A stretch of 56,828 nt of DNA from an uncultured Bacteroidales bacterium (lineage in GTDB: Bacteria; Bacteroidota; Bacteroidia; Bacteroidales; FEN-979): contig CAIKNA010000343.1 of assembly GCA_903828645.1 (NCBI GenBank), forward strand, positions 1-56,828, written 5' to 3'. How positions within the stretch are numbered: the first letter of the stretch is position 1; each line of letters starts with the position of its first letter. The position numbers and the translations under genes are program-made. Positions 4,648-25,066 of this stretch are shown here, in pieces. The notes under the pieces are model-generated. The model ran no database searches, was not told the origin of the DNA, and worked only from the letters and a program-made list of their open reading frames with translations.

Positions 4648-5775
4648 TTATCTGTCAATATCCGGAATAACATAATCAAGGGAACCGCCAATGGCAACCA
4701 GGTCGGCAATCTTCACCCCGCGGCTTATATGATCAAGGGCGCTGAGGTTGGAAAAGTTGGGTGAACGGAATTTCATGCGGTAGGGAGTCTTATTGCCATC
4801 GCTGATGCAATATACACCCAGTTCGCCACGGGATGCCTCCACGCGCTGGTAATACTCCCCGGCAGGAAGTTTGAGCACTGCTTTCATCTTCGCTGAATAA
4901 TCACCTGCGGGAATGTTGTCGATGAGTTGCTCGATAATCCTCATCGATTCATGCATCTCATTCATTCTCATCATATAGCGTTCAAATGTATCACCTTTGG
5001 TTCCGAGGATCTCCCTGAAATCAACTTTATCGTAAACACCATAAGGATGGTGCTTGCGCACATCGCAGGAAAAACCGGATGCACGGCCCGAAGGGCCCGT
5101 AACGCCATAACTGATGGCATCTTCTTTTGACAGAAGTCCAACGCCCTTGGTGCGCATCTGCATGATCATGTTGCCGGTGAGCAGATCATCATAGTCCCTG
5201 ATCTTCTTGCGGAAATATTTAATGAACGCTTTTACATTCTTCTGGAAATCGGGATGGATATCCATCATCAGCCCGCCGGGCGTATAAGAGCTGTGCAGCA
5301 ACCGTGAACCGAATGACTCCTCGAAAATATCAAGAATTTTTTCGCGGTCGCGCAGACCATAAAAGTAACAGGTAAGCCCGCCCATGTCCATCCCGAAACT
5401 GCACCACCAGAGCTGGTGGGAAGCGATGCGGTTGAGTTCGTCGATGATGGTGCGGATGTATTTTACACGTTCGGGAACCTCCACCTCGAGCGCCTTTTCA
5501 ACAAGCAGGCAGACGGCGTGGTTGTTAATATGTGCCGACAGGTAGTCCATCCGGTCGGTGAGGTGGATGATCTGGGGGTAGGTATCCTTCTCACACATCT
5601 TCTCTATGCCGCGGTGGATATATCCGCAGTGAGGCTTGAGGCTTTTAACGATCTCTCCCTGGAGTGAAACAACCAACCGCAGCACACCATGGGTAGAGGG
5701 GTGCTGGGGCCCCATATTTATATGGTACTCCTCCTCCTCGACATTTTTAACAGGCAGGTTAATGACTTCTTTCAT
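4648..5775 (-). CDS. nuoD: NADH-quinone oxidoreductase subunit D (NuoD)
   Basis: 49-kDa-type subunit, which forms the quinone-binding site with NuoB; 375 residues. The N-terminal loop NMGPQHPSTHGVLRL contains the quinone-site histidine, and later segments GCTPGG-like SSYTPGGLMMD and YRMKFRSPNFSNLSAL fit NuoD/hydrogenase large-subunit relatives. NuoC is a separate gene that ends 3 bp upstream, so there is no NuoCD fusion here. The four nickel cysteines of hydrogenases are not present. Confidence 0.97.
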   Translation of the reverse strand: MKEVINLPVKNVEEEEYHINMGPQHPSTHGVLRLVVSLQGEIVKSLKPHCGYIHRGIEKMCEKDTYPQIIHLTDRMDYLSAHINNHAVCLLVEKALEVEVPERVKYIRTIIDELNRIASHQLWWCSFGMDMGGLTCYFYGLRDREKILDIFEESFGSRLLHSSYTPGGLMMDIHPDFQKNVKAFIKYFRKKIRDYDDLLTGNMIMQMRTKGVGLLSKEDAISYGVTGPSGRASGFSCDVRKHHPYGVYDKVDFREILGTKGDTFERYMMRMNEMHESMRIIEQLIDNIPAGDYSAKMKAVLKLPAGEYYQRVEASRGELGVYCISDGNKTPYRMKFRSPNFSNLSALDHISRGVKIADLVAIGGSLDYVIPDIDR

Positions 5776-7180: not shown

Positions 7181-7317
7181 AAAATTAATCTGAGACAACC
7201 TAACCGGATATGGGAAACAACACAAATATCCCGTTTTTATTTGCCTGATTACAGGGGGCTTGCGATATTGGGGCTGTAATATCTCAAGAGCGGGGTTGAT
7301 ATTTGTCAATGAATGAC

Positions 7318-7407
7318 GGCAATGAAAGCAATGAAAACAATGAAAGCAATGAAAACAATGAAGGCAATGAAGGCAATGAAAACAATGAAAGCAATGAAGG
7401 CAGTGAA
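7318..7407. repeat. 9-bp minisatellite (RRCAATGAA), ten copies
   Basis: Ten tandem units of nine bases alternate GG, AG or AA in the first two positions, followed by CAATGAA (last copy CAGTGAA). The array lies between the nuo promoter region and the 3' end of the HEAT-repeat gene. A second array of the same unit lies at 20951-21040. It is readable as (A-M-K)n in one frame but no gene is supported there. The remaining 7181-7317 shows no feature. Confidence 0.9.
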
Positions 7408-16678: not shown

Positions 16679-19600
16679 TTATATAAATCTCATTTTCACG
16701 GTGATCTGTGTTCCTGCTCCCGGCCGGGATTGAATGGTCAGCGATCCTCCGGCCAGGCCGGCACGTTTCCGCATGTTTTTCACCCCGTTCCGGGAGGTCG
16801 GTTTCGCCGGATCGAACCCGATCCCGTCGTCACGGATGACCAGGATGAGGCAGCCCGACTCCTCCCTGAAGCTGATCCAGGCATTTTCACATTGTGCATA
16901 TTTAATGAGATTGTTCACAGCCTCTTTGGCAATCAGGTAGAGGTTGCGCCTGGCTTCCATCTGCAACCTCAGCGTTGCTAATTTTTCGGGGAAGTCGAAA
17001 TTGAACCGGATGTTTTTCGATTCGAACAGCGGGATTGCATATTCCCTGATCCTCAGCCCCAGGTCCCGGAATTTATCATTGGCAGGGGTTACCGTCCAGA
17101 TGATGTCGTCGATGCGTTCAAGCATCTCCCTTGCGCTGCTCCCGATTTCGCCGATCATGCCAGCGGATTTCAGGTTAACCGGTTGCCCGCCAACAATGTC
17201 GCTGAGGATGGAAATACTGCTCAGGGTGGAACTCACATCATCGTGCAGGTCGGTGGCAATGCGGGTGCGAAGCCGTTCCACTTTCAGCATTTGTTTTATC
17301 CGGTTATTGTAAACGAATGCAACCAATGCAACCAATGCAAGGATGCAAAGAAGAAAAAACCACCATGTTTGCCAGAAAAAAGGGTTGATGATTATTTGAA
17401 TGGATTCCAGGCAGTTTTCCCAACCGTCACCCTGGGTGGCACTGACAAAAAATGTATATTTCCCCGGAGGAAGGTTCGTGTACCGGCCTTCCCGGGATGT
17501 TTCTGCTGCAACCCATTCCTTGTCGTATCCGAGGAGTTTGTACCGGTAATATATTTGTCCGGTGTGATGATAACTGATCGCAGTATAGTGGAACGTCAGG
17601 TTATTTTGATCGGCAGTAAGGCTGATTGCAACGGGGGTTCCGTTGTAAAACCTTTCGGGACTGGCTTTGCCGTTAATCTCCATCGCTTCGAACACCAGGT
17701 TGAGCGACGCTTTTCCCGTGTACCTTAAATTCTTCACATTCTTTGTTTCAAAACCCAATGAATCGCCCAGGTATATGTTGCCGGAATGGTCAATGTAAAT
17801 CTTTCCGGAACCGCCCGGGTTTTCATGAAGCCCGTTTTGATTGTCAATCACCTGAAAACGTTCCCGGTATGGATCAACATAAAGCAACCCGTTGTTGATA
17901 ACCCACAAACCCGCATCAGGATCCCTGGCAATCCAGGCTGTACCGGGGTCGTTCATCCCGTTGCCCGAATGAAAAAGTTTAACACCAAATGAGCCGCCGG
18001 CATGTACATCCACCCTTACCAGCCCGGCAAAATCAATGGCGATCCACATTCTGCCGAGGGAGTCCTTTTCCAGCCCGTTCACCCACTTCTTTTGAATGCC
18101 ATATTTCTGAAGGGTATCCATCAGGGAATTGTCGAAAATATTTTTTACCGGGTCATAGATGCTGATGCCGAACCTGCAACCCATCCAGACCCTGTTTAAG
18201 TTATCCGTTTGTATTGCCAGGAAGTGGGTCCCCTCCAGCAATGATCCGGGATCGCCGGGTATGTGTTTAAAGTAATCCGCTTTTTTCCGGGTTTTATCAA
18301 TCCGGATGATGCCATCAAGACGCGTTCCCACCCATAAATTGCCTTCATGATCCTCATTCATCCCATATACCACCGGGAGTTCGGAGAGTTGCAACGGTTT
18401 CCCGTCGGGCGTTCGGTAAATCCTCAGAAGGTTTGCTGCGCGGTCATAATAACAAAGATTGCTGCGGGTACTAACCCAGAGCCTGCCCTGCGAGTCCTGA
18501 TAAAACTGGTTGACAGAGAGTCCTTCCCGGGGTAACGGCTGATCGAACTGAACCAGGCTCCACAAATTTTTCCTGGTATCCAGTACCGGCACTCCCTTGC
18601 ATTGATAAGCCCCAATAAATAATTTCCCGGTCTCCTGGTCTTTAAAAAAATCACTGATCCAGATAAATTTGTATGGCACTCTTACCTGCTGAAAGGAACA
18701 ATAGTCCTTGTTTTCGATATCGATCCCATCTCCCCAGGTCCAGAGATCCTGATGATCGTTAAAATAAGCCACACCCAGGATATGATCCGAAGAGAGGGAC
18801 CTCGGATTTTTCGGATCATGTTTGTAAAAACAGAACGCATGGCTCTTTTTGTTGAAAACCCCAAGCCCCATGTCATCAGTCGCTAGCCAGAATTCATCCT
18901 TGCTTCTGTGTATCATATGCAGGATTGTAATTCCCCAACTGGCCGGCGTATAAATTCTCCATTGTTCGGTCTTCAGGTCAAAACACCCCACCCCTACACC
19001 CCATCCGCAGGCCCACAGGAGTCCTTTTGAACCTAAAAACATCTCACTTATAATCAAATCTACCCCGGGGGGGCCATTGTAATAGCGGTCGATCACTTTG
19101 CTTACCGTATCAAACCTTACCAATCCCATGCTGGTTCCCAGCAGGAATGCCCGGGGATCCCGGGGATCAGACAGAATGGCGGTCACCGCGTTATAGTAAT
19201 ATTCACGCTGCTGCGGTTGGTTGCAACTGTTAATTTTTATTTGCCTGAATTGTCTGCCATTCGAGGCTGCATGGACAATTCCATTTACGGTTGCAATCCA
19301 AACAGAACCTTTCCCAGCTTCGAAAAATGAGTTGATCCTCCGTACCGGGAAACCACCCCTGTTCTTAACATCGAATGGAAAATTCCCCAGTCTTCGGGTA
19401 TGCGGATTGTAGATGCTCAGGCCATTATCTGTGCCGATCCAGATCATGGAATCGCTTGCCTGGTATAGCGTGTATATGGTATTATCAACCAGAGAGGCTG
19501 TGTCGCCGGGAACGGAGCGAAAAATTTTCATATCATGGCCATCATACCTGGCCAGTCCGTTTGTAGTGCCAATCCAGATATATCCCTGGAAATCCTGTAT

Positions 19601-19807
19601 GGCACATAAAACAGTATTGGAAGGCAACCCGTTTTCCCTGGTAAGACGGTTAAAACTGAGCTGTCCCGGGTTTTTGACCGCCGGATTTCCAATCCCGGTA
19701 ACGGTCAAAGGCAGGAACCCCATCCCGGTGAAAATAGCGATCATCCGGAATAATCGAAACACAGAGGGTTTGTTCGCGGGTAATTGCCCGTATGTATAAC
19801 GCTTCAT
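16679..19807 (-). CDS. Two-component sensor kinase with beta-propeller sensor, Y_Y_Y and HisKA_3/HATPase domains
   Basis: 1,042 residues from MKRYTYGQLPANKPSVFRLF. The first ~700 residues hold repeated two-component propeller blades (FQGYIWIGTTNGLARYD, SMIWIGTDNGLSIYN, NLWVGTRLDGIIRID), then a Y_Y_Y-type module (YYRYKLLGYDKEWVAAE...NLPPGKYTF), then one membrane helix (WWFFLLCILALVALVAFVY). The HisKA_3 box ATDLHDDVSSTLSSI puts the phospho-His at 855, followed by the HATPase region (IRDDGIGFDPAK...NMRKRAGLAGGSLTI). No receiver or AraC domain is fused, so it is not a true hybrid; the separate NarL regulator follows. The propeller is probably periplasmic. Confidence 0.9.
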   Translation of the reverse strand: MKRYTYGQLPANKPSVFRLFRMIAIFTGMGFLPLTVTGIGNPAVKNPGQLSFNRLTRENGLPSNTVLCAIQDFQGYIWIGTTNGLARYDGHDMKIFRSVPGDTASLVDNTIYTLYQASDSMIWIGTDNGLSIYNPHTRRLGNFPFDVKNRGGFPVRRINSFFEAGKGSVWIATVNGIVHAASNGRQFRQIKINSCNQPQQREYYYNAVTAILSDPRDPRAFLLGTSMGLVRFDTVSKVIDRYYNGPPGVDLIISEMFLGSKGLLWACGWGVGVGCFDLKTEQWRIYTPASWGITILHMIHRSKDEFWLATDDMGLGVFNKKSHAFCFYKHDPKNPRSLSSDHILGVAYFNDHQDLWTWGDGIDIENKDYCSFQQVRVPYKFIWISDFFKDQETGKLFIGAYQCKGVPVLDTRKNLWSLVQFDQPLPREGLSVNQFYQDSQGRLWVSTRSNLCYYDRAANLLRIYRTPDGKPLQLSELPVVYGMNEDHEGNLWVGTRLDGIIRIDKTRKKADYFKHIPGDPGSLLEGTHFLAIQTDNLNRVWMGCRFGISIYDPVKNIFDNSLMDTLQKYGIQKKWVNGLEKDSLGRMWIAIDFAGLVRVDVHAGGSFGVKLFHSGNGMNDPGTAWIARDPDAGLWVINNGLLYVDPYRERFQVIDNQNGLHENPGGSGKIYIDHSGNIYLGDSLGFETKNVKNLRYTGKASLNLVFEAMEINGKASPERFYNGTPVAISLTADQNNLTFHYTAISYHHTGQIYYRYKLLGYDKEWVAAETSREGRYTNLPPGKYTFFVSATQGDGWENCLESIQIIINPFFWQTWWFFLLCILALVALVAFVYNNRIKQMLKVERLRTRIATDLHDDVSSTLSSISILSDIVGGQPVNLKSAGMIGEIGSSAREMLERIDDIIWTVTPANDKFRDLGLRIREYAIPLFESKNIRFNFDFPEKLATLRLQMEARRNLYLIAKEAVNNLIKYAQCENAWISFREESGCLILVIRDDGIGFDPAKPTSRNGVKNMRKRAGLAGGSLTIQSRPGAGTQITVKMRFI

Positions 19808-19843
19808 GCGAGGAGAGACAAGTGATATTATAGAAACCCTTGT

Positions 19844-19851
19844 CAAACATA
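19844..19851 (-). promoter_or_regulatory. -7 element for the sensor kinase
   Basis: TATGTTTG on the minus strand, an exact TAnnTTTG match 36-43 nt upstream of the kinase ATG at 19807. No clear -33 TTG. The opposite strand of the same 116-bp divergent spacer only shows TACTTTTA for the EFR1 gene. Confidence 0.5.
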
Positions 19852-19922
19852 CGAAATTTTTCCTACTTTTAAACCCCAATCATATACCCGCAAAACCAGG
19901 TTCTATTTTCTTTTTTAGGTTT

Positions 19923-20996
19923 ATGGAGACTGCTCTTTCGATCTACTTTTTTTCAGGCACCGGAAATGCCCGGAATGTAGCCGGTTGGTTTGCCGGGGTT
20001 GCTTCGGATGAGAATATTCCGGCTAGAACGATTGATATTGCCTCAACCGGCCGGAAAAATATTCAACCTCCCCCACCCGGTTCACTGGTGGGGTTTATCT
20101 CTCCCACCCATGGCTTCAACTACCCTCCGGCCATGATGTTCTTCATCTTCCGGTTTCCCCGGTCGAAGGGGAACCGGGCTTTCCTGATGAACACCCGGGC
20201 CGGGCTGAAGCTTTCGAAGTGGTTCATTCCCGGGCTGAGCGGTATTGCACTGTGGCTGTCGGCCCTGGTCCTGCTGCTGAAAGGCTACCGGATCGTGGGA
20301 CTTCGATCCATCGACCTTCCCTCAAACTGGATCTCTTTCCACCCGGGCGTAAAGGAGAATGTTGTAGAATCGATTTACGCTCATTGCAAAGGAATCACGG
20401 TGAAATTTGCAAGGAAAATCCTAAGCGGAAAAAAAGTCTATACTGCCTTCCGCGACATCATCCAGGATTTGCTGGTCAGCCCGGTGAGCATCGGGTATTT
20501 TTTCGTCGGACGGTTTATTCTGGCCAAATCATTTTATGCGACCAACGCCTGCGACCAATGTGACCTTTGCATCAACAACTGCCCCGTGAAAGCCATCCTG
20601 ACCATTGATAAGCGCCCCTTCTGGTCTTACCGCTGCGAAAGCTGCATGAGATGCATGAACGAATGCCCGAAAAGGGCTATCGAAACCGCCCATGGTTACC
20701 TCATCGGCATCATGTGCCTGCTAAACATATGGATCATGATTTGGTTCTGGCAGGGAGTGAGCGCCTTTATCACCATCCCTGCCGACAATGGCTGGGCGCA
20801 GGCCGCAGTAACATTTACCAGGTGGGGAGTAACTTTCGTGGTAATGGTCATTTCTTACCGGATGTACCATTATTTGCTGCGGATCCCGGTCATCCGGCAA
20901 CTTTTTTACATTACCTCGGCTACCAGATATAAGTTCTGGAGGCGATACAAACCATTGAAGGCAATGAAGGCAATGCAGGCAATGAAAACAATGTAG
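19923..20996 (+). CDS. EFR1-type ferrodoxin: flavodoxin-like domain plus 2x[4Fe-4S] ferredoxin
   Basis: 357 residues. An N-terminal flavodoxin fold begins ALSIYFFSGTGNARNVA (phosphate-binding loop at 11-15). Two ferredoxin motifs follow at about 210-250, CDQCDLCINNCPVKA and CESCMRCMNECPKRA. One or two hydrophobic segments come after (LIGIMCLLNIWIMIWFW, WGVTFVVMVISY). This fits the EFR1 family of membrane-linked electron carriers. The last 15 residues, KPLKAMKAMQAMKTM, and the stop codon are encoded by the 9-bp repeat array at 20951-21040, so the natural C-terminus has been extended or replaced by repeat sequence. An earlier in-frame ATG at 19806 is not used. Confidence 0.85.
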   Translation: METALSIYFFSGTGNARNVAGWFAGVASDENIPARTIDIASTGRKNIQPPPPGSLVGFISPTHGFNYPPAMMFFIFRFPRSKGNRAFLMNTRAGLKLSKWFIPGLSGIALWLSALVLLLKGYRIVGLRSIDLPSNWISFHPGVKENVVESIYAHCKGITVKFARKILSGKKVYTAFRDIIQDLLVSPVSIGYFFVGRFILAKSFYATNACDQCDLCINNCPVKAILTIDKRPFWSYRCESCMRCMNECPKRAIETAHGYLIGIMCLLNIWIMIWFWQGVSAFITIPADNGWAQAAVTFTRWGVTFVVMVISYRMYHYLLRIPVIRQLFYITSATRYKFWRRYKPLKAMKAMQAMKTM

Positions 20997-21040
20997 GCAA
21001 TACAGGCAATGAAAACAATGTTGGCAAGGAAGGCAAGGAA
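20951..21040. repeat. Second 9-bp array (GGCAATGAA type), ten copies, overlapping the EFR1 stop codon
   Basis: Ten degenerate 9-bp units related to the array at 7318-7407. Positions 20971-20993 form the left arm of a 23-bp perfect inverted repeat with 21427-21449. A one-mismatch copy of that 23-mer follows at 20998-21020. Confidence 0.85.
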
Positions 21041-21077
21041 GGGGGAAAGGTAGGTTTGATGGTGGAGGAAGGTAGTT

Positions 21078-21361
21078 TTATGGCATTTCGGGATGGGTTG
21101 CGGTTTTCAGGATTGTAAATAACAGTCTGTTTACTTCATCGCATTTTTTTGTTGCAGGAGAGGCTTTTTCGTGTGTAAGGTATCCGGTTGAACAAAGAAG
21201 TTTAAGCCAGAATTCGGTTTCACGGGCCTCTTTATAGGCAATTGACAGCCGGTGGCAAAATTCAGAACATACTCCCGTTTTTCCCTTGTCAGGTATTGAT
21301 AAATGAAAACAATTTCCACGGCCAGATCAAAACTCCTATCTTTGATGACATTCTCTTTCAT
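21078..21361 (-). pseudogene. Four-helix-bundle protein (S23/IVP family), internally deleted and frameshifted
   Basis: The first part, MKENVIKDRSFDLAVEIVFI followed by YQYLTREKREYVL, matches the start of the four-helix-bundle family also known from 23S rRNA intervening sequences. The usual middle (KQLLRSGTSIGANV-type) is missing. The end of the family continues in another frame from about 21260 (FCHRLSIAYKEARETEFWL to the stop at 21078-21080, ending KTATHPEMP). About 25-30 codons are deleted, with a frame change at the junction. It is flanked on both sides by inverted 9-bp repeats. Confidence 0.75.
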
Positions 21362-21426
21362 GAACTTTTTCAACTTAATCCGCCAAAAACCCAAAAGTCA
21401 ACCCCGTGTTAAAAACTTAATATTCG

Positions 21427-21449
21427 CATTGTTTTCATTGCCTGCATTG
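21427..21449. repeat. Right arm of the 23-bp inverted repeat flanking the four-helix-bundle pseudogene
   Basis: The sequence CATTGTTTTCATTGCC plus TGCATTG is the exact reverse complement of 20971-20993. Together the arms bound a 479-bp unit containing the pseudogene. Confidence 0.85.
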
Positions 21450-21472
21450 TTTGCATTCCATAATTACCAACC

Positions 21473-22027
21473 ATGATTTACCTCGACAACACCCTCCTCT
21501 CCGACGATATCAAGTCAACGTTCTTCTGCTGCGACATGGCCAAATGCAAAGGGGCCTGTTGCGTGGAGGGTGATGCCGGTGCACCGCTTGATGAGGAGGA
21601 GATTTCGCTGCTCGAAGATTACATTGACGACATCAAGCCCTTTATGGTGCAGGAGGGCATCGATGAGGTGGAGATGCTTGGCGTGTTTGACTATGATGCC
21701 GGGGGAAATTTCGTAACCCCGCTGATTCACGGGAAGGAATGCGCATTTGTCTATTTTGAGGATGGCATTGCCCGGTGTGCCGTCGAAAAGGCATTCCAGG
21801 AGAAAAAAATTCCCTTTGCAAAGCCGATCTCCTGTCACCTCTACCCCATCCGGATCAAAACCACCCCCGTCAATGATCTGCTCAATTACCACAAATGGCC
21901 CATCTGCCAGAAGGCACTGGTAAAAGGTTATAACGAAAAAATACCCCTTTACCAGTTCCTGGAAGGGGCATTGATCCGTAAGTACGGCCGGACGTGGTAT
22001 AACCGGCTTGTTAAGTTACTGCGTTAG
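21473..22027 (+). CDS. DUF3109 family cysteine-rich protein
   Basis: 184 residues. Conserved cysteines occur in FFCCDMAKCKGACCVEGDAG, in KECAFVYFEDGIARCAVEKA and in ISCHLYPIR...WPICQKA; this arrangement suggests metal or Fe-S binding, as in YkgJ/DUF3109 proteins. The function is not established. Its last 17 bp overlap the end of the converging ferritin gene. Confidence 0.8.
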   Translation: MIYLDNTLLSDDIKSTFFCCDMAKCKGACCVEGDAGAPLDEEEISLLEDYIDDIKPFMVQEGIDEVEMLGVFDYDAGGNFVTPLIHGKECAFVYFEDGIARCAVEKAFQEKKIPFAKPISCHLYPIRIKTTPVNDLLNYHKWPICQKALVKGYNEKIPLYQFLEGALIRKYGRTWYNRLVKLLR

Positions 22028-22550
22028 CCCCGCCGCTGATAGCCAATGCTGCCCGCTTGGCCGCAGCCATGGCCGCAAATTCCTTGTCCATCATGAACTG
22101 GCCTCCCCGGTCGCTTCCGGCCAGTTTGATCTGGTCGAGGATGCTTCGGACAGTACTCTCCTCCTCTATCTGCTCGGTGATGTACCATTGCAGGTAATTT
22201 GCCGAAGTAAAATCCTTCTCCTTGGTACAGGTCGCATAAAGGTCATTGATCGAAGCCGAAATGTACTCTTCATGTACCAACACCTGTTGAAAAACATCCG
22301 GTAGCGATTTGAAAGCTGCATCAGGGGCATCCAGTGCCGGTATGACCGCGGTGCCTCCCCGGTCGTTGATGTAGTGAACCAGTTTCAGCATGTGAATCCG
22401 TTCCTCTTCGGTTTGCACATAAAGCCAGTTGGCTGCGCCGGGATATCCGTTCCGTTCGGCCCATGAGGCCATCGACAGGTATATGCGGGAAGAGTGTTCC
22501 TCTCGTTTGATCTGCTCGTTTATCGCTTTTTCTACGTTTTTGCTGATCAT
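22011..22550 (-). CDS. ftnA: Ferritin (FtnA-type)
   Basis: 179 residues from MISKNVEKAINEQIKREEHS, a non-haem iron-storage ferritin. Ferroxidase ligands are visible: Glu in NEQIKREEHSSRIYLSMASW, EExxH-type in YVQTEEERIHMLKLVHY, Glu in VLVHEEYISASINDLY and Gln/Glu in YLQWYITEQIEEE. A TTG three codons upstream is disregarded. Only 26 bp separate it from atpG, and no TAnnTTTG is visible there, so it is probably read through from the atp operon. Confidence 0.93.
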   Translation of the reverse strand: MISKNVEKAINEQIKREEHSSRIYLSMASWAERNGYPGAANWLYVQTEEERIHMLKLVHYINDRGGTAVIPALDAPDAAFKSLPDVFQQVLVHEEYISASINDLYATCTKEKDFTSANYLQWYITEQIEEESTVRSILDQIKLAGSDRGGQFMMDKEFAAMAAAKRAALAISGGANAVT

Positions 22551-22576
22551 GTTGAACAAGTTTGAATGAAAATAAT

Positions 22577-23467
22577 TTACCCTTTCAACGCCTCCGCCCC
22601 GGATACGATTTCGAGGATGGCATTGGTAATGGCATTCTGGCGAGCCTTGTTGTAAGAGATGTTGAGGTTGCGCAGGAGATCCTTGGCATTTTCGGTGGCC
22701 TTGTTCATGGCCGTCATGCGTGCTCCCTGCTCGGAGGCGAAGGAATCAAGCACCGATTTGAAAAGCTGAATGCGCAGTGTTTTCGGAATAAGTTCGCGTA
22801 CGATGGTCTCCTGGTCGGGCTCAAAAATGTAATCTGATTCCACTTTGGCAACCGAAGCCGGGGTTGTGGCTCCGGGAGGAGTAATGGGCAGGTATTGTTC
22901 AACAATCAACTGCTGTACGGCCGCATTTTTGAACTGGTTATAAATCAGGTCTATCCTGTCAAACTCTTTGCCGGCAAACCCTTTCATCAGTTTTTCGGCA
23001 AGGATGGAGGCATTGGCAAAGGTTAGCTGGTCAAACAGTTCATCGTGCGATTCCAGGACATTGTATTTCCTTTTACGGAAATATTCCGTGGCTTTACGGC
23101 CAATGGTGATGAAACAAACGTTGTTCTGAAGAAACTGCTGGCGGTAGGTGGTCGTGGTAAGTTGCACGGCCGTTTTGATGATGTTTGAGTTGAATGCGCC
23201 GCATAATCCCCGGTTGGAGGCAATGACGACAAGCAATATCTTTTCGGGTTTGCGGGCCTGGGAGAATACGTTTTCGTCGGAACTGTCAATCGTGGCGCTC
23301 AGGTTTTGCAGGATTTCCCGCAACTTGGCGGCATAGGGTCTCAGTTTGATGATGCCCGTTTGCGCCCTGCGCAACTTGGAGGCCGCCACCATTTTCATGG
23401 CATTGGTAATCTGTTGGGTCGATTTTACCGATGCAATCCGAATACGTACTTCCTTCAGTCCGGCCAT
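22577..23467 (-). CDS. atpG: ATP synthase F1 gamma subunit
   Basis: Central rotor stalk of F1Fo ATP synthase, 296 residues. N-terminus MAGLKEVRIRIASVKSTQQITNAMKMVAASKLRRAQ and C-terminus ARMTAMNKATENAKDLLRNLNISYNKARQNAITNAILEIVSGAEAL are the two coiled-coil halves typical of AtpG. Last atp gene of the operon, 9 bp after atpA. Confidence 0.97.
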   Translation of the reverse strand: MAGLKEVRIRIASVKSTQQITNAMKMVAASKLRRAQTGIIKLRPYAAKLREILQNLSATIDSSDENVFSQARKPEKILLVVIASNRGLCGAFNSNIIKTAVQLTTTTYRQQFLQNNVCFITIGRKATEYFRKRKYNVLESHDELFDQLTFANASILAEKLMKGFAGKEFDRIDLIYNQFKNAAVQQLIVEQYLPITPPGATTPASVAKVESDYIFEPDQETIVRELIPKTLRIQLFKSVLDSFASEQGARMTAMNKATENAKDLLRNLNISYNKARQNAITNAILEIVSGAEALKG

Positions 23468-23476
23468 TTAATTCTC

Positions 23477-25066
23477 TTATTTCTTTTCCTCGTATTTTTT
23501 GGACAGATCTTTCGCAGTCTGCTCCATTATTTTCAAATCCTCATCCAGCAGTTTGCCTGCTTTTAAATTATCAAGAACTGCCTGGTGATTTTCGTCCATG
23601 AAATGCAGGTACTCTGTCTGAAAATTATTGATGCTCCTGACCGGGATGTTCCGCAACAATCCGCGGGTACCACAAAAGATGATGGCGATTTGTTTTTCGA
23701 CCGTCATGGGTGAATACTGGGGTTGCTTGAGGATTTCCACATTACGTGCCCCTTTGTCGAGAACGGCTTTGGTCGCGGCATCGAGGTCGGAACCGAATTT
23801 CGAAAAGGCTTCGAGTTCGCGATATTCGGCCTGGTCGAGTTTAAGGGTTCCGGCAATTTTCTTCATCGATTTGATCTGGGCGTTTCCTCCCACGCGCGAC
23901 ACCGAAATACCCACATTGATGGCGGGGCGGATGCCTGCATTGAACAGGGCTGTTTCGAGGAAGATCTGTCCGTCGGTGATGGAGATCACATTGGTGGGAA
24001 TGTATGCCGATACGTCTCCTGCCTGGGTTTCGATGATCGGGAGGGCTGTAAGGGATCCTCCTCCTTTTACCATGTTCTTAAGCGTGTCGGGAAGGTCGTT
24101 CATCTGGCGGGCAATCTCATCTGACGAGATAATCCTGGCGGCACGCTCCAGCAAACGGGAGTGGAGGTAGAACACATCGCCGGGATAGGCTTCGCGTCCG
24201 GGAGGGCGGCGAAGCAGCAGGGAAACTTCACGATAGGCCACAGCCTGTTTTGACAAGTCGTCATAGATTACCAGGGCGGGCCGGCCCGTATCCCGGAAAA
24301 ATTCACCGATGGCGGCGCCTGCAAACGGTGCATAATACTGCATGGCTGCAGGATCGGATGCAGTTGACGAAACCACCACCGTGTAGTCCATGGCTCCTTT
24401 TTCTTCAAGTGTCTTGACGATATTGGCGACCGTCGAGCCCTTCTGGCCCACCGCCACGTAAATGCAATATACGGTTTCTCCCCTGGCGTGAAATTCCTTC
24501 TGGTTGATGATGGTGTCGATGGCGATGGCGGTTTTACCGGTCTGGCGGTCGCCTATGATCAACTCGCGTTGTCCGCGCCCGATCGGGATCATCGCATCGA
24601 TGGGTTTGATTCCGGTTTGCAACGGCTGGTTCACCGGCTGGCGGTAGATAACTCCCGGGGCTTTCCTTTCCAGGGGCATTTCATAGCGTACACCTTCAAT
24701 CTTTCCTTTGCCGTCGATCGGCTCTCCGAGGGTATCGATCACACGGCCGAGAAGGCCCTCCCCAACTTCGATGGAGGCAATGCGGCGGGTGCGCTTCACA
24801 ACATCACCCTCTTTGATTTCCAGGTAATCTCCCAGCAAAACAGCGCCGACATTGTCGGCCTCAAGGTTTAAAACAATGCCCTTCAGCCCGTTTTTCTCAA
24901 ATTCAATCAACTCTCCGCATTCGACATTGTTCATACCATAGATCCGGGCAATGCCGTCTCCAACCGTAAGAACCACACCAACTTCCTCAAGTTCCTTCTC
25001 GCTCTGGTAACCGGCCAGTTCCCTGCGCAAGATTGCCGTAACTTCTGCGGGTTTAATATCAGCCAT
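23477..25066 (-). CDS. atpA: ATP synthase F1 alpha subunit
   Basis: 529 residues. Walker A at about 170-177 (GDRQTGKT), the alpha-subunit pattern [82 protein letters not shown], and ISRVGGNAQ-type [16 protein letters not shown]. It forms the hexamer with AtpD, which is not encoded here. Located between atpH and atpG. Confidence 0.98.

Follow-up and report, generated by a model that had tools for sequence, protein, structure and literature searches.

Free-standing S23 four-helix-bundle genes between matched inverted minisatellite arrays, with a decayed copy between EFR1 and DUF3109 genes

A decayed S23 gene between inverted arrays

The window, by which we mean the whole stretch of 56,828 nucleotides analysed here, carries on its forward strand a gene for an EFR1 family ferredoxin (NF038196; 19806-20996) and, downstream of it, a DUF3109 gene (PF11307; 21473-22027). 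The interval between the two genes is bounded by inverted arrays of a 9-bp minisatellite. The left arm (20956-21042, forward strand) is built of GGCAATGAA-like units, is G-rich when read inward and overlaps the last EFR1 codons; TRF reported it at 20956-21042 with a score of 90, and a period-27 row at 20962-21040 with a score of 116. The right arm (21427-21459, reverse strand) comprises 3-4 units of the same array in inverted orientation and ends 13 bp before the DUF3109 start. The initial annotation had drawn attention to a 23-bp inverted repeat here, and its halves, 20971-20993 on the forward strand of the left arm and 21427-21449 within the right arm, are indeed exact reverse complements that each occur once in the window; ungapped extension lengthens the pair to 31 nt at 90% (20963-20993/21427-21457). 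Both arms proved to be 9-bp arrays as described there, and the further array placed near 7318 is present at 7313-7407. The EFR1 frame enters the left array (20950-20996) and ends KAMKAMQAMKTM, whereas EFR1 in L057 and L063 ends otherwise, ahead of the array; in the window, the array is now coding for the EFR1 end.

Between the arms lies a pseudogene of the S23/IVP four-helix-bundle family (21078-21361, reverse strand; ATG at 21359-21361, stop at 21078-21080), the decayed gene that had been recognised from the sequence. A tblastn search with the intact L062 orthologue placed S23 residues 1-34 at 21361-21260 and residues 59-116 at 21263-21090 in a different frame, and residues 35-58 are absent from the copy. 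The remnant matches PF05635 with 34.6 bits, against a cut-off of 33.8; the ORF, frame-shifted, is dead, and both arms are still present. The leader 5' of the S23 start (21362-21412, reverse strand) contains a GATTAAG motif at 21374-21380. In the predicted fold of the cassette the 23-bp stem closes, and the overall fold is unexceptional (z -1.67, with 7/100 shuffles equally stable). An Rfam search of 18500-24500 matched no family. For the DUF3109 gene, the nearest named relatives come from metagenome assemblies of Bacteroidales and Bacteroidetes, and we accordingly assign the window to the phylum Bacteroidota. A second inverted array pair occurs elsewhere in the window (26520-26567/26614-26647; ATTTACG unit, 33 nt at 94%), where the 46-bp gap is too small for a gene; L002, another S23 gene of the home genome, has arms of this unit.

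The initial annotation had named two observations that would count against its proposal, namely arms common elsewhere without the gene, and no other family member flanked by such arrays. The first is true of the window's 9-bp unit, since the pattern CAATGN4CAATGN4CAATG, allowing at most one mismatch, matches 158 times in the home genome against 1 match for the reversed control, with exact matches spread over 22 contigs. Solo arrays being this frequent, we rejected arrays as an S23-specific mark. The second holds for the 9-bp unit in the home genome, where stretches of up to 1.5 kb on each side of the five remaining S23 matches did not contain it, and is false for arrays generally. L002 has inverted arms of 47 bp, and L003 has inverted arms of 44 bp at 100%; L004 shows only a weak 16-bp pair (E 0.006), and no inverted arms were detected at L001 or at L006, which itself falls below the Pfam cut-off.

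Inverted arrays at S23 genes of the clade and beyond

We assembled 96 S23 loci, comprising the 6 home-genome matches to PF05635, 30 top-scoring loci of relatives and 60 further loci in the genus and family, and searched for arms by blastn (E<1e-3) between the 350-bp flanks of each S23 match; L215 was left out owing to a short flank, leaving 95 testable loci. Inverted arms were found at 80/95 and direct ones at 5/95 (63 and 5 at E<1e-6), while 15/95 were without significant inverted arms. The inverted cases comprise 3/6 loci of the home genome, 25/30 of the top-scoring relatives and 52/59 lower in the list. Five places within the family that were initially passed over, and lie outside the 95, gave inverted arms in all four testable cases, the fifth having too short a flank. 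Gene calls were ORF-based and many of the genomes are metagenome assemblies, yet complete isolate plasmids agree. In this clade, inverted repeat arrays generally flank free-standing S23 genes on both sides, and in this respect the repeat-bounded cassette suggested by the initial annotation stands; its single shared 9-bp unit was wrong, as the unit is locus-specific, both arms of any one locus having the same one.

Two controls were applied. Among neighbouring ORFs in the same stretches, inverted arms were found for 3/103; one of the three (L224:1399-1698) is an S23 gene itself, another (L224:497-1264) is the neighbour of that S23, and the third (L241:4623-4910) adjoins a Y1 transposase gene. 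When left arms were paired with the right arms of other loci, 13/475 combinations matched, indicating that two loci rarely have the same arm sequence. Each arm is a short tandem array whose unit, usually 7-9 bp long, varies by locus, and G exceeds C reading inward at 88/95 armed loci (the armed subset of 133 loci, separate from the 95 testable ones). As arm sequence varies between places and matches within each, gene and arrays look like one hairpin-bounded unit. Arrays are also common between genes without S23, which might suggest that the intergenic regions of this clade are simply rich in minisatellites, with S23 genes merely among them. Such a coincidence is contradicted by the ratio of 80 inverted to 5 direct cases, which is unlike random-array insertion, as well as by both controls, and we regard it as highly improbable.

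S23/IVP matches are present in 53/61 genomes of the relatives set and in 116/148 of the phylum-wide set, a genome of the genus or family having 1-22 copies, and among the matches listed most places have no internal stop. Intact members score far above the cut-off of 24 against TIGR02436 (four helix bundle protein), with 128 bits for L187 and 126.9 bits for L310, and relatives in the PDB include 2gsc and 2rld.

The association was also examined in the reverse direction. In the window together with 80 loci retrieved with the DUF3109 protein as query, 7 inverted tandem-array intervals of 200-900 bp were found in 972,881 bases (6 sequences), and 7/7 hold S23; all lie at the DUF3109 site, so the result is specific, yet not independent of that site, and the stricter filter used dropped the armed loci L063 and L076. 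Of the inverted intervals in other sets, home-genome stretches chosen for 9-bp arrays contributed 3 (S23 in 1), relatives chosen for S23 contributed 43 (S23 in 38), sdhB loci 5 (S23 in 4) and 30 Y1 loci none, so that 8/51 inverted intervals in the home-genome, relatives and sdhB sets are without S23. Direct intervals numbered 9 in the relatives (4 with S23) and 0 in the home-genome, sdhB and Y1 sets. Directly 3' of sdhB in G019 (L371, 2252-3116), about 815 bp lie between inverted GTCATTAGG arrays with no S23 match; an array-bounded arrangement is not confined to S23.

A phylum-wide search of 148 genomes gave 10 inverted and 1 direct case among its best 30 S23 loci. Of 40 plasmid records, 19 S23 loci were examined, with inverted arms at 10 and direct arms at 2 (L311 and L324 have both kinds); the inverted loci comprise 8 from Cyanobacteriota, 1 from Azospirillum (Pseudomonadota) and 1 from Gemmatirosa (Gemmatimonadota). 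Two of the cyanobacterial loci, L310 and L317, are near copies, and several sub-threshold plasmid loci, including Riemerella L316, have short arms by eye. On cyanobacterial plasmids S23 often lies between genes of the same strand, and in L308, L311 and L312 it is found inside CRISPR operons (cas6-S23-cas4, cas10-S23-cmr3).

Across 126 S23 loci, 63 genes lie sense and 20 antisense to co-directional neighbours; neighbours are differently arranged at 29, and 14 could not be judged. The sense bias, the presence of S23 in operons such as sdhA-S23-sdhB and cas6-S23-cas4, and the lack of stops in most listed places would suit a resident regulatory module that spread by vertical descent and rearrangement and not by mobility, its S23 protein binding to the hairpin on the transcript that encodes it and regulating the operon. 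We think this unlikely in view of the antisense copies, the patchy presence at both sites examined and the finding of matching arms on related S23 genes located at separate sites, the latter two described below. A GATTAA motif precedes the start of the PF05635 match by 25-85 nt in 48/96 S23 loci, compared with 57/1446 background windows; the leader consensus, seen in about half of S23 loci, has CTTTT some 15-20 nt ahead of GATTAA. A conserved hairpin around the motif was rejected, because among 35 leaders 2224/5000 half-swap permutations paired as well, and we therefore keep GATTAA as a sequence motif only.

Site occupancy and the matching of arms to genes

The initial annotation had proposed a look for empty sites between EFR1 and DUF3109, and these exist. 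From 80 DUF3109 loci in total, 23 were viewed for site content and 15 entered the S23 and arm test; the query was an orthologue, as a distant S23 in tblastn had found S23 in just 1/7 loci of this site. Seven of the 15 have near-complete S23 matches (57-80% identical to the L062 protein, and in L066 split over two frames), all seven with inverted arms; L061, L065 and L091 keep only the first 22-29 S23 residues and have no inverted arms, and 5/15 are without S23. The unit is GGCAATGCA (9 bp) in L059, L062, L063 and L067, GGAATGCA (8 bp) in L066 and L073 and AGAAATGT (8 bp) in L076, and this drift from 9 to 8 bp appears in both arms of each locus. Just 5' of the DUF3109 start, L060 and L092 carry other minisatellites; their units, GGATCCCGGCGGATT and GATATCGTCCCGATG, measure about 15 bp by eye. 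A tblastn search with the orthologue gave no S23 match in L060.

At the second site, between sdhA and sdhB, 5 of 30 loci have S23 between arrays (1 by eye) and 18 have S23-less gaps of 32-184 bp, while 7/30 could not be parsed (L354, L360, L362, L363, L370, L372 and L374, of which L370 has an armed S23 upstream). The S23-less gaps mostly contain one-way arrays of other units, and in G032 and G035 a short palindromic array pair without S23. The array ends are ragged, and the comparison of occupied with S23-less sites covered only the length of the gap and what it contains. S23 occupancy is patchy at both sites, and it is on this patchiness that we infer mobility of the cassettes. No very recent copy pair was seen among the sampled loci, where the closest S23 pair within one genome is 86% identical at the amino acid level; recent bursts were rejected, the best relative lying in the same genome for just 6/82 sampled loci. 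The lack of near-identical copies in the sampled genomes speaks against a high rate of mobility.

In L091 a Y1 transposase gene (PF01797, 93.7 bits; 5280-5753, reverse strand) occupies the place of the S23 remainder and adjoins the first 22-29 S23 codons; L061 and L065 are similar by eye only. Together with the inverted ends, scattered sites and variable copy number, the gene in L091 would accord with a unit resembling a DNA transposon: the arrays would serve as terminal inverted repeats, and a transposase, for example of the Y1/REP-associated type, would act on them in trans. The end sequences of the cassettes differ between loci, however, and the Y1 genes of the clade have short REP-like palindromes instead. 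Of 30 Y1 loci, in which no array interval was seen, 25 entered the arm test and 24 were tested after L259 had been left out for a short flank; 8/24 gave inverted and 7 direct repeats, none array-like by eye. These different ends led us to reject a RAYT as the mover of S23 cassettes, and we hold the transposon explanation to be quite improbable. At L255, L262, L264, L274 and L275, the Y1 gene lies between short inverted repeats built around a REP-like palindrome (AGCCCTGAAAGGGCG and similar sequences).

Across sites, the arm unit corresponds to the S23 lineage. For pairs of loci without a shared neighbour gene, drawn from the 95 that are armed out of 133, protein identity correlates with the overlap of arm 6-mers (Mantel r 0.316), a value reached in 0/999 permutations, the highest of which gave 0.064. 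TTAAGT arms, for instance, are common to related S23 genes at different sites (L190, L196, L203, L205, L212 and L225); three pairs among them have a neighbour gene in common, the remaining pairs none. The TTAAGT array pattern matched G019 nowhere except in its two S23 arms, though the reversed control matches 4 times there; solo TTAAGT arrays are also present in G000, G002, G013, G033 and G036, and these counts are softened by non-empty reversed controls (G033 8, G036 21, G008 5, G019 4). We read the correspondence as arms inherited together with the S23 gene, the rival being a lineage-specific choice of target.

In the latter case the arms would belong to the target, S23 inserting at the apex of pre-existing palindromic array pairs and each lineage preferring its own array family. 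Gene-less palindromic pairs do exist (26520-26567/26614-26647 in the window, L326-L328, L337, L338 and the sdhA-sdhB gaps of G032 and G035), solo arrays are common, and rRNA intervening sequences (IVS), according to passages of PMC4990558, replaced the former tetraloops of rRNA helices. No S23 remnants were seen by eye in the gene-less pairs L326-L328 and L336-L338, with a profile search at L169, covering L336, only. Against target choice stand the sdhA-sdhB S23 genes in species of three genera (G005 and G010; G028 and G031; G024), which share GATTAGG-type arms, whereas the parsed S23-less sdhA-sdhB gaps of the home genus carry other units (the S23 arms of G007 and G025 differ), as well as the confinement of TTAAGT matches to the S23 arms in G019, with the control count given above. 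On balance we find insertion into ready-made array pairs possible and somewhat unlikely.

Returning to joint inheritance of arms and gene, we compared the order of variant units between the two arms. It is mirrored at p<0.05 in 13/40 testable loci, where about 2 are expected, and 8 of the 13 are at the smallest p that the test allows; loci were admitted to the test for having arms, so the count of 13/40 is a guide only. The mirrored order points to copying from arm to arm, and the 27/40 loci without mirroring at p<0.05 fit independent slippage of a shared unit.

Relation to rRNA intervening sequences and other repeat systems

The closest known parallel is the 23S rRNA intervening sequence. In Coxiella, according to passages of PMC4990558, the ends form a 28-bp stem that RNase III processes and whose loop contains the S23 ORF. 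Like the IVS, the cassettes have an ORF of the PF05635 family in the loop between complementary terminal arms; unlike it, they lie between protein genes (in the window, EFR1 and DUF3109) and not in an rRNA helix, and their arms are tandem minisatellites with lineage-specific units. Since the window cassette lacks the rRNA location, we do not file it as an IVS. On the best reading, the cassette is a counterpart of the 23S-rRNA intervening sequence that stands alone between protein genes, often inside operons, and it probably works like an IVS. For the window itself we favour, with moderate confidence, a decayed cassette made up of an inward G-rich array, a leader, an S23/IVP ORF and the inverted array, with the IVS-like working argued from this resemblance.

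In such a working, the arms, once transcribed, would form a long stem by base pairing and leave the S23 ORF in its loop, and double-strand-specific processing (by RNase III in the rRNA case) would separate the S23 RNA from its neighbours. Because the S23 RNA would be separable by processing, we propose that the unit can be tolerated inside operons. Arms and gene would be inherited as one unit, in which tandem slippage alters the repeat while fold-back copying between the arms may help to keep them complementary. New sites might be reached by an RNA route aided by an Avd-like S23 protein, which is our favoured guess; S23 is weakly similar to the Avd model NF033474 of diversity-generating retroelements (28 bits, cut-off 80), and passages of PMC10053308 also suggest homology between PF05635 and Avd.

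It is tempting to go further and to see in S23 cassettes widespread selfish hairpin-bounded elements of at least four phyla, whose protein recognises and co-diversifies with its own arms, the rRNA IVS being a special case that landed in rRNA and the solo arrays being footprints, as REPs are of RAYTs. We put this forward tentatively, as a possibility that we do not favour. To our knowledge S23/IVP proteins have no known job outside rRNA, and the recurrent matched inverted arrays give the family a testable function in hairpin binding or processing. The same architecture offers a single origin for rRNA intervening sequences and for S23 genes that stand alone, and it explains part of the puzzling tandem repeats of short unit found between genes in bacteria. 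Arms that change in sequence yet remain complementary are also well suited to testing whether fold-back copying occurs in bacterial DNA.

REP sequences are coupled to Y1 transposases (RAYT). The cassettes resemble this system in having dispersed short repeats matched to a protein lineage, with solo copies in the same genome, and differ from it in being without a Y1 transposase, the Y1 genes of the clade having different, palindromic ends. Compared with DNA transposons and MITEs, terminal inverted repeats are present (80/95 loci), but their sequence is seldom common between loci. Intergenic heptamer repeats of the TAACTGA type, from Beggiatoaceae, cyanobacteria and Bacteroidetes, likewise form 7-mer tandem arrays between genes, but in the passages concerned are described mainly as direct repeats near start codons (PMC4679880); in the main text of that paper, the terms S23, four helix and intervening do not occur.

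A literature search returned, among the matches listed, no recognisable description of S23 genes between matched inverted arrays. Four helix bundle genes are named in PMC5524665 and PMC8700078, in the passages found without repeat arms. In Table 5 of the former, two strains of Flavobacterium columnare have a four helix bundle gene between the guanylate kinase and nicotinate-nucleotide adenylyltransferase genes, possibly another operon-embedded S23.
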